DNA of 64,000 nt, taken from NCBI GenBank assembly GCA_016192135.1, contig JACPUR010000017.1, positions 124,001-188,000 of the forward strand. The letters run 5' to 3'. Shown piece by piece: positions 6,535 through 13,980 of the stretch (position 1 is the first letter of the stretch; every line of letters starts with the position of its first letter). This DNA is from Candidatus Tectomicrobia bacterium. GTDB taxonomy: Bacteria > UBA8248. Made by a program: the position numbers and the translations under genes. The notes beneath the pieces are model-generated. The model did no database searches. It saw nothing but the letters and a program-made list of their open reading frames with translations, and was not told the origin of the DNA.

Positions 6535-8075
6535 GGCGCCATCCTCGCGGGGGCGGGCTCGAGATCCTCGAGCGCGCCCTGCCCCGCCCCGGCCAGCACC
6601 CCGGCCGCCGGCCCCAGGGCGGCGGTCCTTCCCTCGCGCAGGACGAGCGCCCGGTCCGCGCACTGGAGGGCGGACCCGGTGTCGTGGGTGCAGAGGACGA
6701 TCCCGCGCTCCTCCGGCGCCTCGTCCACCCATCGGCGGAGGTCCGCGAGCAGGCGCTGGCGGAGGCCCCGGTCCAGGCCCGCCGTGGGCTCGTCCAGCAG
6801 AAGGACCCGGGGGGCGCAGGCCAGCAGCGCCGCGAGCGCCACCCTAAGCCTCTCCCCCCGGCTCACCGAAAAGGGGTTGCGGCCCGCCAGCGGGGCGAGC
6901 CCCACCCCCTCCAGGGCGCGCGCCACGGCCTCCCGGGCCTCGGCGGGGGGACGGCGGAGGAGCCTGGGCCCGAGCGCGACTTCGTCCCGGATGGTGCCCG
7001 CGCTGAGCATGAGGTCCGGGTTCTGGAAGAGGAAGCCCACTTTTCCGGTGAGGGAGGAGAGGGAGAGCCGGGGGCGGACTTGGCCGAACCACTCGATTTG
7101 GCCTTCCTGGGGGCGCAGGAGGCCCGCGAGGAGCCCGAGGAGGGTGCTCTTGCCGGCGCCGTTGGGGCCCATCAGGGCGAGGATCTCCCCGGCCCGCAGT
7201 TCGGCGGTGACATCATCGAGGGCCGGGGGACTCTCTTTCGCGTAGCGGTGGCACAGGCCCCGGAAGCGGACGAGGGCGGGCTTCTCCGCGCGGATGGAGA
7301 TAGGCGCCGCGTGAGGGGCGGGGAACTCGTCCCCCGGTGCCTCGAGGCCCAGCTCGCGGAGGAGGGGCATCGCCTCGCCGAAGCGCCCGCGCGGGAAGAC
7401 GCCCCGGATGGTTCCTTCCTCCAGGACGACCAGCCGGTCCGCGAGCGGGAGAACGCGCCCGACGCGGTGCTCCGCGATGAGGAGGGTGAGGCCCTGTTCC
7501 CCGCGCATGGCGGCGAGGGCGCGGAGGATTTCCCGGCTCGCGCGCCCGTCGAGCTGGCTCGTGGGCTCGTCCAGGGCGAGGACGCGGGGGTGAAGGGCGA
7601 GGGCGCTGGCGAGAGCCACTCGCTGTTTCTCCCCGCCCGAAAGCTCGGCGCACGGCGAGTGGCGCTTTGCGGAGGCCGAAGCGCGCGCGAGCGCCTCCTC
7701 CACGCGCTGCGCGATCACCCCGGGCGGCTCGGCCAGGTTCTCGGGGCCGAAGGCCACCTCGTCCTCCACCCGGCCGCAGAGGAGCTGGTCCTCGGGGTTC
7801 TGGAAGAGGAAGCCCACCGCCGAGCGCAGGGCGGGGGAGGGGATCGAGGCGGCGTCCCGCCCGCCGATTTCGATTCGGCCCTCGAGGCGGCCCGCGCTCT
7901 CGCGGGGAATGAGGCCGTTCGCCGTCTTGAGCAGGGTGCTCTTCCCGCAGCCGGTGGGACCGGTCAGGAGGACGCACTCCCCCTCGCGCGCCGCGAGGTC
8001 GATCCCCCGCAGGGCCTCCCGGGCCGCCCCGGCGTAGCGGAAGCGCACGCCGCTCCAGGAGATGGCGGGGGTCAT
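6531..8075 (-). CDS. ecfA: ECF transporter double ATPase (EcfA and EcfA' in one chain)
   Basis: This 514-residue protein contains two complete ABC ATPase domains. Domain 1 (about 3-240) has Walker A GPTGCGKST (39-47), signature LSGGEKQ and Walker B RVLALDEPTS. Domain 2 (about 265-495) has Walker A GPNGAGKST, a degenerate signature VSRGERLR and Walker B RVLLLDEPTAG. ECF transporters normally use two separate ATPases; here both are joined, as in YkoD-like proteins. The degenerate second signature implies one weaker ATP site, common in asymmetric ABC pairs. The start at 8075 overlaps the S-component gene by four bases. It powers uptake through EcfT and the S component. Confidence 0.9.
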   Translation of the reverse strand: MTPAISWSGVRFRYAGAAREALRGIDLAAREGECVLLTGPTGCGKSTLLKTANGLIPRESAGRLEGRIEIGGRDAASIPSPALRSAVGFLFQNPEDQLLCGRVEDEVAFGPENLAEPPGVIAQRVEEALARASASAKRHSPCAELSGGEKQRVALASALALHPRVLALDEPTSQLDGRASREILRALAAMRGEQGLTLLIAEHRVGRVLPLADRLVVLEEGTIRGVFPRGRFGEAMPLLRELGLEAPGDEFPAPHAAPISIRAEKPALVRFRGLCHRYAKESPPALDDVTAELRAGEILALMGPNGAGKSTLLGLLAGLLRPQEGQIEWFGQVRPRLSLSSLTGKVGFLFQNPDLMLSAGTIRDEVALGPRLLRRPPAEAREAVARALEGVGLAPLAGRNPFSVSRGERLRVALAALLACAPRVLLLDEPTAGLDRGLRQRLLADLRRWVDEAPEERGIVLCTHDTGSALQCADRALVLREGRTAALGPAAGVLAGAGQGALEDLEPAPARMAP

Positions 8076-10012
8076 CCGGCCACCTCCCTGAGGGGCGCGC
8101 CCAGCCGCAGGCCCAGCGCGAAGCCGATGAGGGTGTAGAGCACGCTCCCGACCGCCAGGTAGAGCAGGATGTACCAGTCCGCCAGGATGAGCCGGTAGAA
8201 GAAGATGTGCAGGTGCATGCTCGCGCCCGCCAGCAGGAGGTCCGCCCCCACGAAGGCCAGCCCCGCGGCCAAGGCGGGGCGCCAGCGCTCCTGGGGCCAG
8301 CGGTCGAGGAGCCTCCGGCCGGGGGCCCCGCGCGTGATGCCCGCCAGCCAGGCGGCCCCCTCCAGGAAGACGATCTCGGCCGCGAGGAGGAGGACCGGGA
8401 TGATCTGGAAGGACTCCAGGGTGAGGGCCAGGATGAGTCTCCGGATGGCGGCGAAGAGGGCGAGCGCGCCGGGCACGGGGTAGCGCATCAGGAAGGCCGC
8501 CGCGAGGGCGTAGAGCGGCACGTGGCTGAAGAGGCCCGTCACCAGGAAGGAGAAGGGACCGAGGAATAGCCGGGTGGTGCTCCCGACCAGGAACTCCGGC
8601 AGGCTCGCCAGGACGAAGGCCGCCGCCGCGAACATGGCCGCCCCGGTCATCACCCGCAGGGGCATGGCCCGCAGCACGCGCCCCCCGCGCCAGGCGAGGA
8701 GGGCGCTCCCTGCGATGGCGACGGCCAGGGTGGCCGCCGTCACGAGGAAAGCCCTGAGGCTCGGGCGCCTCAGTTCGAGCGGGAGATCGAGCGCGAGGAG
8801 ATCCGTCTCGGTGCCCAGCAGGCGCACCTGGACCCGGCGCACGTAATGTCCCGGCGCCGCCTCGCGCGGGTCGAGGAAGATGGGAAGGACGACGGGCGCC
8901 GTCCCCCCCGCCGGCAGCGCCGCGAAGGCGATGCTCCGGCCCGAGCCCCCGCTGATGAGATCGGGCGCCCGGAAGAAGGCGGCCTCCCGATCCGTCCCCG
9001 CGACGAGGATGCGCGAGGCGACGGTCAGGGCCAGCGCGCCCTCCGAGGCGTTGCGCAGCCACAGCGTCTGGTGGCGGTAGGGGAAGAAGGGATTGACCGG
9101 GGGGCCGCCGCGCCCGGTCAGGGTCAAGAGGAAGTGCCCCGGCCCGCCCGGCAGCAGCATGGTGTCCGGGAGCTGGAAGGGGTCGGCGTTCCCCTCCTCG
9201 TCCGTGGGGAGGGCGGCCCGCTCCAGCCGCACCGCGCGCGCCAGCTCCCCGGCGGGCCGCAGGAGGACCTCGGTCCGCACCTGGAGCGGAGGGTGGCCGC
9301 CCCCGGGGCGAAGCGCCGCCTCGAAGGCGAGGGAGCCGGACGCGCGCTCCGGGAGGCGGAGCTTCACCTGGCGGAACCAGATGTCCCCCGCCGCGCCGAG
9401 GCTTCCAGAGGCGGAGAGGGCGAAGCCCCCGCCGCCGGTGGAATGGAGGAGCTCCCAGCCTTCCGGCAGCGATTCCACCTCGACGCCCGGCGGGAGCCGC
9501 AGGAGGGCCTCGAAGCCGCCCGCGCCCCCGTTCGGGGTGGCCTCCCCAAGGGAGGCCACCTTAAGCGTCGCGTGGAGAGCGGCCCCGGCGGGCAGGAAGG
9601 CGCGCGGGGAGGCGAGGCCGTGGGGGATTTCGAGGGTGAGGGCGAATGGCGCCGGGCGCGCGGCGGGGGCCGGCGCGGACGCCTCGATCCAGGCGCCTCC
9701 TCCGTCTCCCCCGGCGCCCTCCCGCATGCGGAGCCGCACGCGGTAGGTTTCCCCCGGCCGCCAGGGGAACTCGACCCGGAATTCGCGGCCGGACCGGCCC
9801 GCCAGCTCGCGGCGGAGGAGTACCCGCCCCTCCCCGGAGAGGACCTGGACCTCCTCGGCCGGAGCGGCGCGGGAGAGGTGCAGATGGATGCGATCCGGGC
9901 CGAAGGCGAAGCGGGAGAGCCGCACGGGCTCCCCGCCGCCCCCGCACCCCCCGAAGGCGAGGGGCGCGAGGAGCAGCAGGAGCCAGAGAAGCCGGCTCAG
10001 AAAGGCTCCCAT
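8072..10012 (-). CDS. Lipoprotein fused to ECF S-component-like membrane domain (probable cobalamin-specific subunit)
   Basis: A 646-residue protein with an unusual layout. It begins with a lipoprotein signal (lipobox FGGC at about 20-23), followed by roughly 390 residues of beta-rich extracytoplasmic sequence. A first membrane helix lies near residue 430, and five or six more run to the C terminus, including the stretch around SFLVTGLFSHVPLYALAAAF and the final VLYTLIGFALGLRLGAPL. The last 190 residues have the size and helix spacing of ECF S components such as YkoE or CbrT. It lies between btuF and the ECF ATPase and overlaps both genes (by 16 and 4 bases), so it should be the substrate-binding S subunit. 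The extracytoplasmic part may dock the binding protein or receptor. The S-component identity is inferred from position and topology. Confidence 0.65.
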   Translation of the reverse strand: MGAFLSRLLWLLLLLAPLAFGGCGGGGEPVRLSRFAFGPDRIHLHLSRAAPAEEVQVLSGEGRVLLRRELAGRSGREFRVEFPWRPGETYRVRLRMREGAGGDGGGAWIEASAPAPAARPAPFALTLEIPHGLASPRAFLPAGAALHATLKVASLGEATPNGGAGGFEALLRLPPGVEVESLPEGWELLHSTGGGGFALSASGSLGAAGDIWFRQVKLRLPERASGSLAFEAALRPGGGHPPLQVRTEVLLRPAGELARAVRLERAALPTDEEGNADPFQLPDTMLLPGGPGHFLLTLTGRGGPPVNPFFPYRHQTLWLRNASEGALALTVASRILVAGTDREAAFFRAPDLISGGSGRSIAFAALPAGGTAPVVLPIFLDPREAAPGHYVRRVQVRLLGTETDLLALDLPLELRRPSLRAFLVTAATLAVAIAGSALLAWRGGRVLRAMPLRVMTGAAMFAAAAFVLASLPEFLVGSTTRLFLGPFSFLVTGLFSHVPLYALAAAFLMRYPVPGALALFAAIRRLILALTLESFQIIPVLLLAAEIVFLEGAAWLAGITRGAPGRRLLDRWPQERWRPALAAGLAFVGADLLLAGASMHLHIFFYRLILADWYILLYLAVGSVLYTLIGFALGLRLGAPLREVAG

Positions 10013-10931: not shown

Positions 10932-13025
10932 TCAGAAGTGGAAGCGGATGCCCGCCAGCCAGTTGATGCCCGGCGCGTTGAAGCCGAACACGTCGTCGTA
11001 GTCCTCGTCGAGGAGATTGTTCACCTTGAGCTCCACCGTCAGGCGCCTCACCCCGGGCAGGGAGACGCCGCCGGGGACGGGCTTGCCGTCCCGGATGAGG
11101 TCGTAGGCCAGGGCCAGGTCGGTGCGGGCGTAGCCCGCGTTGTGGACCCTGGGGAAGGTGAAGCTCCCCTCGATCAGGGGCGTGAAGTCGCGGTCGGGCC
11201 GCTGGCCCACCTGCTGCAGGATCAAAGTGCCGCGGAAGCGCCCCGGGTGGTAGCTCACCGAGCCGGTCCACCACCAGTGCGGGCGGCGCAGCAGGCCCTG
11301 CCCCGCCATGAAGTCCTGGCCGCCCCGGCCCCCCCGGTCGTCCGCGACGACGGTGTCGAGGTAGTTCCAGTTCGCGCGCACGGTGAAGTCGCGGTAGTCC
11401 ACGAGGGCGGCGGAGAGCTCCACCCCCTTGGTCTCCACCTTGGAGATGTTCTCGAAGTTGGTGCCGTTCGGGAAGCCGGCGAAGCTGAAGGAGATGAGGT
11501 CCTTGAGGGTGTTCTCGAAGTAGGTGGCGCTCAGGACGATCTGGCGGCCGAGGAGATACTGGTCCACCCCCGCCTCCCAGCTCTCCTGGCGCTCGCTCTT
11601 GAGGTTGGGGTTGCCGCGCAGGACGAGGAAGCCCTGGTCCGAGAAGAAGAAGAGATCGTTGAAGGAGGGCCGCTTGGCGCCGTTCCCCGCCGCCCCGCGG
11701 ACGCGGGTGCCCGTCCGCTCGAAGAGGTAGGAGGCGGAGAGCTTGCCGGTCACGTCGTCCGCCCCCTTGTCGTAGTCGTCCACCCGGGCGCCGCCCGTCA
11801 GGGTGAGGCGGTCCCAGAAAGTGAGCTGTTCCTGGAAGTAGAGGGAGCGCGCCAGGCGCGTGTGGTTCTGGGTGGTGCTCTGCGTGCCGCGCACGGTCTG
11901 GAAGAAGCGCTCCTCCTCCCACTGGAATCCCAATGTCGTGACGGAGGAAGTGAGGGCGTCCCAGCGGAGGTCCTGCCCCGTGAAGCGCAGGTTCACCGGG
12001 TGATCCGTCAGGTAGCGGGTCTGGGTATTGTCGCTCTTGAATTCGGAGAAGAAGGGCCGGGTGACATCCAGGGCGTCGGCCGGGTCGTGGAAGGTGAAGT
12101 CGCGCTGGTAGAAGGAGGCGCGGGGGACGTACTCGAGCCACCGCGTGGGGCGCAGCTCGAGGCTCGCTCCCGCCATCTGATCCGCCGCGTCCTGGTAGGC
12201 GTTCAGCTCGCGGTCGGTGAGCCCCGCCGGGAGGCGGAACTCCGTGTTGGTCGCGCCGGCGTCCGAGGTCTGGTCGCGGCGGTTGCGGTTTCCCATGACG
12301 AGCAGGCGGAGCTTCGCGGCGGGGGAGGGGAAGTAGTCGAGTGCGCCCAGGGCGGCGGTGCGGTAGTAGCCGTCGTTCGTGTAGCGGCCCTCGCTGTCCA
12401 CACGGCTGAGGGTGGCGAGGTAGCCCCCCTTCTCCCAGCCCCCCTTCGCCTTGAGCACTTCCTCGAAGGTGGAGTCGGAGCCGAAGCGGAAGGCGGTCTC
12501 GAGGGAGGGCCGCTCGCCCGGCCGGCCCAGGTCGAGCAGGAGGTTGATCACGCCCGCGGCGGCGTCCGAGCCGTAGAGGGAACTCTGGGGCCCGCGCAGC
12601 ACCTCGGCCCCCCGGAGCCACTCGGCCGGGATGTGGGCGTAGTCGAAGACGTCGCCGTCGGGGGGGGTGAGCTTGAAGCCGTCGAGCAGCACGCTCGTGA
12701 AGTTGTTCTCGCTCCCCCGGATGCGGATGCTGGCGGTGGCCCCCCGGGCGCCGGTCTGGTCCATGTTGAGGCCGATGCCCTGGCGGAGGAGGTCGCCGAA
12801 GTCGGTGGGCAGAGTCAGTTCGATCCGGTCCTGGGCGAAGACCTCGACGGAGTCCCCCACGGTGCTGACGGGCCGGGGGGTGCGGGTGGCGGTGACGGTC
12901 AGGGGATCCAGCAGGAGCTCCCGCCCCTGCGGTGCCTGGGCGAGGGAGTCGCCGGCGGCGGCGAGCAGGAGCGCCAAGGCGGCGAAGAGCGGAATCGGGG
13001 ATAGGAGAGATCGGCGGCGGGCCAT
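10932..13025 (-). CDS. btuB: TonB-dependent outer-membrane receptor, BtuB-like
   Basis: A 697-residue protein with a signal peptide (MARRRSLL to about SLAQA), then a TonB-box-like segment (DPLTVTATRT), a plug domain (about 45-160, with RIRGSENNFTSVLLDGFKL and RGPQSSLYGSDAAAGVINL) and a 22-strand barrel. It ends in the aromatic outer-membrane signal GIRFHF. Two cobalamin riboswitches directly upstream identify the ligand as B12 or a related corrinoid. I chose the Met at 13025 because it starts the signal peptide behind GGAGAA; the frame is open for 46 more codons, but that part overlaps the riboswitch. It is the first gene of the uptake operon. Confidence 0.92.
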   Translation of the reverse strand: MARRRSLLSPIPLFAALALLLAAAGDSLAQAPQGRELLLDPLTVTATRTPRPVSTVGDSVEVFAQDRIELTLPTDFGDLLRQGIGLNMDQTGARGATASIRIRGSENNFTSVLLDGFKLTPPDGDVFDYAHIPAEWLRGAEVLRGPQSSLYGSDAAAGVINLLLDLGRPGERPSLETAFRFGSDSTFEEVLKAKGGWEKGGYLATLSRVDSEGRYTNDGYYRTAALGALDYFPSPAAKLRLLVMGNRNRRDQTSDAGATNTEFRLPAGLTDRELNAYQDAADQMAGASLELRPTRWLEYVPRASFYQRDFTFHDPADALDVTRPFFSEFKSDNTQTRYLTDHPVNLRFTGQDLRWDALTSSVTTLGFQWEEERFFQTVRGTQSTTQNHTRLARSLYFQEQLTFWDRLTLTGGARVDDYDKGADDVTGKLSASYLFERTGTRVRGAAGNGAKRPSFNDLFFFSDQGFLVLRGNPNLKSERQESWEAGVDQYLLGRQIVLSATYFENTLKDLISFSFAGFPNGTNFENISKVETKGVELSAALVDYRDFTVRANWNYLDTVVADDRGGRGGQDFMAGQGLLRRPHWWWTGSVSYHPGRFRGTLILQQVGQRPDRDFTPLIEGSFTFPRVHNAGYARTDLALAYDLIRDGKPVPGGVSLPGVRRLTVELKVNNLLDEDYDDVFGFNAPGINWLAGIRFHF

Positions 13026-13094
13026 GCGGTTCTCCTCGGCGTCCCAAGACGCCACAGGGGCCCCGGCGGGAGCGATCCCGCGCGGGGCGCGTGG

Positions 13095-13250
13095 AGAATC
13101 CGGCAGGCCGGTCTTCTGGCTCGCGCCGATGGCCGGCTCCCGCCCCTTCCCGGATGCGCGCATCCAGTGGGACTTGCGGGAGCCGCGTCGCTCACAGCTG
13201 CTGGGCAGCCCCGGTTTCGCACCGGGTTCCCGGGCACCTGCCGGATCGGC
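13095..13250 (-). promoter_or_regulatory. Cobalamin riboswitch, proximal copy
   Basis: On the minus strand the aptamer core GGGAACCCGGTGCGAAACCG (complement of 13212-13231) is followed by CAGCTGTGAG and then the B12 box AGCCAGAAGACCGGCCTGCC (13102-13121). The closing stem is visible: CCGGCAGG at 13237-13244 pairs with CCTGCCGG at 13100-13107. Between it and the btuB start, a GC hairpin (13060-13088, stem GCGGGA/TCCCGC with GCGA loop, extended by GCCCC/GGGGC) without a U tract could be the expression platform, acting on the ribosome-binding site GGAGAA just downstream. Confidence 0.9.
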
Positions 13251-13428
13251 TCGGAGGCGGCGCGTCCGCCTCCGCTTAGAATGCTTCGGTACAGCGTCTG
13301 GGGGTGAGGAGGCTGCGAGGCCGGAGGGTTCCCGCCGGGAGGCCTTGAATGGCCATCCCCGCAGAAATGATGAATCCCTTTGGCTGAAGCCGCACTTCCC
13401 GATCCCCGAGGAGGCGACGTGGATGCAG

Positions 13429-13600
13429 CGGGCGAAACCGGTCTCCTGGCTCCCGGATCGTCCTACTCGCGGCGGCCTTCCCGGCGGCTGGGCGCCCGTG
13501 GCCTCTTGGACCGCTTTCGTCTCCGGTTACAGTGGCGGGTCCGCGCCGGATTCTCACCGGCTTCCCTGTCCTCCCCGCGGGAGGACGCCTCACCCGATGG
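13429..13600 (-). promoter_or_regulatory. Cobalamin riboswitch, distal copy (tandem with the proximal one)
   Basis: The minus strand reads GGGAAGCCGGTGAGAATCCG, then CCGCCACTGTAACCGG and the B12 box GAGCCAGGAGACCGGTTTC, an excellent match to the cobalamin aptamer consensus. A P1 stem can be drawn between 13587-13596 and 13429-13438. It lies about 180 bases before the proximal copy in the same orientation, so a single leader would contain two B12 sensors in series. Confidence 0.92.
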
Positions 13601-13638
13601 GCGCAACCTACTCTTTTCCCGAGGGGCTTTCAAGCGGC

Positions 13639-13980
13639 TCAGCCGCCCGGGCCTCCGATCTCCTGATCCAGGAGCATCTGCGACTCGGCCATCTCGTGGA
13701 TCATCTGGCAGGTGGAGCGGAAGTCCCTCTCCAGGCCGGCGAAAAGCTGCTGGATCTGCAAGGGGGTGAGGATCTGCGAGAGCTCCGAGAACACCACTTC
13801 CCAACTGTCCCGCTGCCGCTTGCCCCGCTCCAGGACCTTCCGCTCCTTCGTCATTTCGTCGTAGATCTCGTGCTCATGATCCAGAAGATCGCGGAGCACG
13901 GGCTCGTAGTTCGGATCGTGGGAGTGGATGTAGCGCATGAGATATGGCTTGAAGTTTCGTACTTTTTGGAGCCTTTCCAT
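13639..13980 (-). CDS. Small helical soluble protein of unknown function
   Basis: A 113-residue charged protein rich in Glu, Arg and Leu and predicted almost wholly helical (e.g. HEHEIYDEMTKERKVLERGKRQ). No signal peptide, membrane segment or motif I recognise. ATG at 13980 is preceded by GGAGG. It ends about 40 bases before the riboswitch leader on the same strand, so the B12 operon promoter must lie within or after this gene, or the gene is cotranscribed upstream of the leader. Amino-acid composition supports real coding. Confidence 0.65.
   Translation of the reverse strand: MERLQKVRNFKPYLMRYIHSHDPNYEPVLRDLLDHEHEIYDEMTKERKVLERGKRQRDSWEVVFSELSQILTPLQIQQLFAGLERDFRSTCQMIHEMAESQMLLDQEIGGPGG

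Follow-up and report, generated by a model that had tools for sequence, protein, structure and literature searches.

The window analysed here is a stretch of 64,000 nucleotides from a Candidatus Tectomicrobia genome, and all positions without a locus name refer to it. On its minus strand, the gene for a btuB-type TonB-dependent receptor is preceded by a leader with two complete cobalamin riboswitch aptamers in the same orientation, RS1 and RS2 (Table 1). A search of the window with cmscan at the gathering thresholds (31.5 bits for RF00174) gave exactly two matches to this family; both are on the minus strand, cover the full model and score far above the threshold. A third copy was not found by an E-value scan of 12950-13700, and a search of the whole 3.9-Mb genome found no cobalamin riboswitches besides these two. 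The B12 boxes are 330 nt apart, the P1 stem closes in each copy in the covariance-model alignments, and the pair spans 13089-13607 with 162 nt between the copies. Score, B12 box and P1 stem all place both copies in the cobalamin riboswitch family. No gene lies between them; two aptamers of one class share one leader, presumably on a single transcript. An earlier note on this DNA had claimed two complete aptamers ahead of btuB at 13095-13600; the covariance models that it proposed as a check bear this out, and its interval differs from the true span by a few bases. A match to HOTTIP_1 over RS1 (21.5 bits, threshold 50) was dismissed as chance.

Table 1. Features of the btuB leader and the genes that follow it (positions in the window)
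Feature	Positions	Strand	Details
Sigma-70-like promoter (candidate)	13633-13605	minus	TTGAAA (13633-13628), 17 nt, TAGGTT (13610-13605)
RS1, first cobalamin riboswitch aptamer	13607-13419	minus	RF00174, 90.0 bits, E 6.2e-21, model positions 1-189/189
RS1 B12 box	13450-13440	minus	GCCAGGAGACC
RS1 platform hairpin	13412-13395	minus	UCCU-CGGGGAUC-GGGA, SD-like GGGAAG (13400-13395)
Linker RS1-RS2	13394-13275	minus	C-rich, no terminator-like site, no frame common between genera
GC-rich hairpin directly 5' of RS2	13274-13252	minus	9 bp, overlaps the first bases of the RS2 match
RS2, second cobalamin riboswitch aptamer	13256-13089	minus	RF00174, 87.5 bits, E 3.2e-20, model positions 1-189/189
RS2 B12 box	13120-13110	minus	GCCAGAAGACC
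Anti-Shine-Dalgarno UUCUCC	13098-13093	minus	just 3' of RS2 P1, pairs with 13035-13030 (predicted)
RS2 platform hairpin (P13-like)	13053-13038	minus	stem GGCGU/ACGCC, loop CUUGGG
btuB Shine-Dalgarno GGAGAA	13035-13030	minus	
btuB-type TonB-dependent receptor, 697 aa	13025-10932	minus	ATG 13025; PF00593, PF07715
Rest of likely operon	10931-3151	minus	BtuF-like, 646-aa protein, ECF ATPases, CbiQ-like, BamB-like, TonB

We believe that both copies are of the AdoCbl type, judging from the large P6 extension that each of them keeps and from what we take to be the distinguishing features of the cobalamin riboswitch classes. Class I and class IIb cobalamin riboswitches bind AdoCbl (the parts of PMC11260477 cited here).

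The two top NCBIfam matches of the receptor are models for vitamin B12 receptors, and neither match reaches the curated cut-off of its model (the best is TIGR01779 TonB-B12, 162 bits). It is likely that btuB and the genes at 10931-3151 form an operon. For the inner membrane this operon seems to rely on an ECF-type system, with two ECF ATPases and a CbiQ-like protein, alongside a BtuF-like binding protein and a TonB gene; nothing in the genome reaches the cut-off for a BtuC-type permease (best 25.5 against 26.5 bits), and the 646-aa protein (8072-10012, minus strand) has no Pfam or NCBIfam match. In the source genome CbiD, CbiC and CobN have no matches, two matches each were obtained for B12-binding_2 (MetH-type) and methylmalonyl-CoA mutase, and there is one corrinoid adenosyltransferase. 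Since these synthesis proteins gave no match and the B12 enzymes and the adenosyltransferase are present, the organism probably imports B12 and makes AdoCbl from it. On the other side of the leader, a 113-aa reading frame without a Pfam match (13639-13980, minus strand) stops 31 nt short of RS1; genome G002 has a similar protein further upstream.

The phylum was sampled with 18 genomes, all of one family, and compared with 23 genomes from the rest of the domain, 20 of which have a riboswitch match. The pair is present in ten of the 18 (two matches on one strand of one contig, 322-703 nt from start to start), which rules out an assembly accident, and precedes a homologous btuB in all ten. Six genomes have one match, and two (67% and 79% complete) have none. 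An adjacent same-strand pair was found in none of the 20 matching outside genomes; one of them (G022) has a divergent pair. CbiC and CobN are each present in five of the 18 genomes, the same five (G004, G008, G010, G012 and G014; loci L042, L044-L047), all of genus g3 and with a single riboswitch; the tandem genomes, all ten of them, gave no match to either protein. In the two g3 genomes read by eye the switch precedes cob-like genes (an aminotransferase, CobQ-like), and no g3 stretch contains a receptor homologous to the btuB of the window. A btuB leader is found in 11 genomes, ten times doubled and once single (G005, also without CbiC and CobN). Considering how few the lineages are, no more than one or two events underlie the link between the tandem and lost synthesis.

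Within a genome, RS1 and RS2 are 49-54% identical, compared with 53% among 15 riboswitches of other phyla. A recent duplication is thereby ruled out: the copies are as unlike as riboswitches of different phyla, so that the pair is old, and the descent of one copy from the other is not demonstrable. In the tree, all ten RS2 fall into a single clade with a support of 100 and a long branch; the ten tandem RS1 are joined by the lone copy of G005, with a support of 36. When the six single-switch leaders were searched for a decayed RS2, five remained below the 95% level of the shuffles; G014, with a score of 35, is just over its 95% level of 33 but short of the 43 reached by the best shuffle, and the positive control scored 205.

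The low identity can be read in another way, namely, that the copies sense different corrinoids, which is the two-input control that the earlier note had allowed for. The differences fixed in RS2 (CAG before CUGU and GCCAGAAGACC in 10/10, no P2-P3 side arm) agree with this; however, both copies align with the whole RF00174 model and keep the large P6 extension, GCCAGAAGACC and GUCAGAAGACC are found in other phyla too, and no finding here links the RS2 differences to the ligand. Nothing that we found suggests different ligands, the suggestion of two inputs is left unsupported, and we consider it quite improbable.

Paired changes speak for two working aptamers. The number of alignment cells with two-sided pair changes goes beyond all 500 column shuffles in both copies and drops when the partners are slid; the count of pairs that show such changes separates less sharply from the shuffles, 42 and 21 of 500 of which reach it. 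MAFFT misplaces the variable arms (alignments A3 and A4 were excluded from the pair counts), so these counts understate RS1 P1 and the RS2 platform hairpin. It could still be proposed that RS1 is a vestige and RS2 alone works, considering that the btuB leader of G005 has one copy only and that the window contains no recognised output of RS1. We give this little chance: the paired changes of RS1 exceed all shuffles, RS1 has the higher score in every one of the ten tandem genomes (90-123.5 bits, as opposed to 78.8-97.1 for RS2), and the one copy of G005 groups with the tandem RS1, albeit with the low support given above.

Each copy is followed by a platform hairpin of its own, with a presumed output in the case of RS1. 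The RS1 hairpin pairs in all 16 RS1-type leaders and has an SD-like 3' arm; it is nearly invariant and for this reason exhibits no covariation, and the stability of this stretch alone is ordinary in the window (z 0.29). The RS2 hairpin, with the loop CU[U/C]GGG, stands just before the btuB Shine-Dalgarno in 10/10 tandem genomes, its whole stem being swapped between genera. The fold predicted in the window from RS2 P1 to the ATG lays UUCUCC on GGAGAA (z -3.88, 0/200 shuffles as stable); in the majority of genomes from genera other than g1, the anti-SD pairing does not surpass that of shuffles. Candidate L13 loops were found after both copies, with L5-L13 complementarity for a kissing loop judged by eye: in RS2, L5 CCCAG fits the loop CUUGGG; in RS1, L5 CCCG fits the loop CGNGG less regularly; and in G007 the fit is poor for both copies. 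The predicted fold makes an action of RS2 on translation the best supported step of the model proposed below.

Because the aptamers are adjacent in one leader, one could also imagine that they touch and bind cooperatively, like the paired glycine aptamers, with one shared platform. The separate platform hairpins speak against it, as do the variable start-to-start distance and the inserts of ~250-380 bp that lie between the riboswitches in five g5 genomes, with G015 as reference (L037:1569-1990 and the linkers of L035, L038, L039 and L041). We regard such contact as extremely unlikely; the inserts indicate independent units. The insert of G009 (L037) has inverted ends of 15 nt that are 87% complementary and, from its sequence, looks like a small transposable element; the search used for it found no inverted ends in G006 and the G013 stretch.

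The promoter-like site before RS1 overlaps the first bases of the aptamer. With assumed matrix values it scores 8.1 (95% null for this locus, 2.9); there are 26 sites like it in 128,000 positions. A stricter scan with a 9-of-12 cut-off gave no promoter in 12900-13700; the site lies below this cut-off and is therefore absent from its list too. Of the 16 riboswitch leaders of the phylum, 9 (5/10 tandem and 4/6 single) have a best site ahead of RS1 that exceeds the 95% null, the signal being weak in genus g5 (G009, G011, G013, G015 and G017 are below the 95% null). Before RS2, the best score in the window is 1.1 against the same null of 2.9. For the earlier note a promoter separating the copies would have spoken against a tandem; none stands out between RS1 and RS2.

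These data bear on the possibility of separate transcripts, in which the target of RS1 would be a leader peptide or a short RNA upstream, and a linker promoter would give rise to an RS2-only transcript beginning at the hairpin directly 5' of RS2. This hairpin is found in 10/10 tandem genomes with differing stems (only 0 to 26 of ~590 random 34-mers per locus are equally stable), and a stable hairpin in this position resembles many mRNA 5' ends; in addition, RS1 has its own SD-like platform, and in G007 a GATAAT precedes the hairpin (score 5.55, 95% null 5.7). Nevertheless, the best site before RS2 exceeds the 95% null in none of the ten tandem genomes, and there is none at the stricter cut-off; the reading frames after RS1, compared by eye, differ between genera, and some stop early, so that none is common; and the inserts in five genomes remove the linker sequence for a -35 box. 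We therefore consider separate transcripts unlikely. Insulating RS2, slowing the polymerase and marking a 5' end are conceivable roles for the hairpin.

Two scans, one of them over 12900-13700, found no intrinsic terminator in the leader of the window, so that an intrinsic terminator after RS1 is rejected there, and the leader is not of the kind in which each AdoCbl aptamer is followed by one. The fold of the whole leader is unremarkable (z -1.45). Terminator-like sites are present in 4/10 tandem leaders (G007, G009, G011 and G017) and in 3/6 single-switch leaders (G004, G010 and G012), and RS1 may thus use a terminator in some species; the site in G007 is the hairpin before RS2 followed by six T. 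In the linker, C exceeds G in 12/16 leaders measured (7/10 tandem); the exceptions are G005, G006, G013 (where the stretch measured takes in the linker insert) and G017.

The reading that we prefer is as follows. A transcript starting just upstream of RS1 would carry two independent AdoCbl-type switches in series, both of which reduce expression of the B12-uptake operon when B12 is abundant. In RS2, binding of the ligand would dock the platform hairpin on the aptamer, and the anti-SD 3' of P1 would hold the btuB SD. RS1 would act earlier on the same transcript: with ligand bound, the platform hairpin carrying the SD-like site would close, and Rho could then halt transcription, the C-rich linker being untranslated. 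The response could be tighter and steeper than with one switch. What the data show directly is the two complete aptamers, the lack of a recognisable promoter between them, the conserved pairing of the two, a leader free of terminators and a btuB SD that pairs in the predicted fold; the ligand, the OFF direction, the Rho step and the steepness are what we infer here. That two working OFF switches stand in series we hold to be highly probable, and that RS2 among them controls translation we hold to be probable. With no intrinsic terminator and no conserved leader gene, Rho is the likeliest route for RS1; it is favoured by the lack of a terminator, by the presence of Rho in 17/18 genomes of the phylum and by the precedent of E. 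coli btuB. We nonetheless propose Rho as the output of RS1 only tentatively. Taken as a whole, the picture of an old, phylum-wide double switch of mixed mechanism, with RS1 acting via Rho by hiding the SD-like site, RS2 blocking btuB translation, the pair belonging to the uptake operon in lineages that lack CobN and CbiC, and g3 having one switch before cob genes, seems to us possible, if somewhat unlikely.

For two series OFF switches of equal affinity, simple arithmetic (1/(1+x)^2 against 1/(1+x)) narrows the 90-to-10% range from 81-fold to about 40-fold. Steeper control, as the earlier note suggested, is plausible by analogy, since such pairs have been interpreted in print as OFF switches in series ('pseudo-cooperative', PMC9481103).

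AdoCbl tandems have already been published, so the kind is known. As far as the cited parts of these papers go, less than 1% of AdoCbl-riboswitch leaders have several aptamers (PMC2258182), 26 AdoCbl doublets were listed in 2022 with the 'pseudo-cooperative' series reading (PMC9481103), and cobalamin is counted among the contiguous riboswitches with experimental work (PMC12452182). This agrees with the rarity assumed in the earlier note. The phrase 'tandem cobalamin riboswitches' was not met in the literature searched, by which we do not claim its absence from print. The doublets in the part of PMC9481103 consulted are like the pair in the window: one class, one leader, the same orientation and a platform for each copy, putative in the case of RS1; however, the examples given there have intrinsic terminators with their independent platforms, and the leader of the window has none.

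The AdoCbl riboswitch of E. coli btuB, as we propose for RS2, controls a btuB-type receptor at translation initiation, and the Rho-dependent transcript loss described for it fits what we propose for RS1; in the portion of PMC11162775 cited, however, that leader has one aptamer, whereas the leader of the window has two and a role of Rho that is only presumed. The SAM-II/SAM-V tandem has the same proposed order, transcription and then translation, with one ligand; it differs, according to the section of PMC9481103 concerned, in having two classes and a terminator after the first, as opposed to one class and no terminator here. In the M. tuberculosis B12 riboswitches the platform masks an SD that is not that of the main gene, as may hold for RS1; there, an upstream ORF was shown to be translated (PMC11260477, as excerpted), whereas RS1 has no conserved ORF after it.

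A pattern scan of one genome per species (84,980 species) for two GCCAGRAGACC boxes with 290-320 bases between them gave 60 stretches. Rfam was run on 36 of these; the remaining 24 are repeats from a single Endozoicomonas strain, of which a 25th was scanned without a match. Among the 36 there are eight true tandems, of which this phylum contributes two and a single Desulfitobacteriaceae genome another two; given the spacing range and the exact boxes, this count is a lower bound and misses most tandems of this phylum. In four of the six other tandem loci compared the copies are 64-89% identical, as against 49-54% in the phylum of the window; in the remaining two they are 49% identical. One locus with 49% identity is in a Nitrospinae genome (L069:5705-6215, minus strand), upstream of cobalt-transport-like genes; its second copy covers only positions 47-167.

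What this case adds is a pair that is old, conserved and poor in terminators, standing ahead of a btuB uptake operon in a phylum that has received little study. Tandems for one ligand are usually explained as a sharpening of the response, and many look recently duplicated; old, divergent copies kept together across genera raise the question of what each of them adds. Relatives with one and with two switches occur in the same small phylum and differ in their B12-synthesis genes, so the value of the doubling can be tested by comparison.
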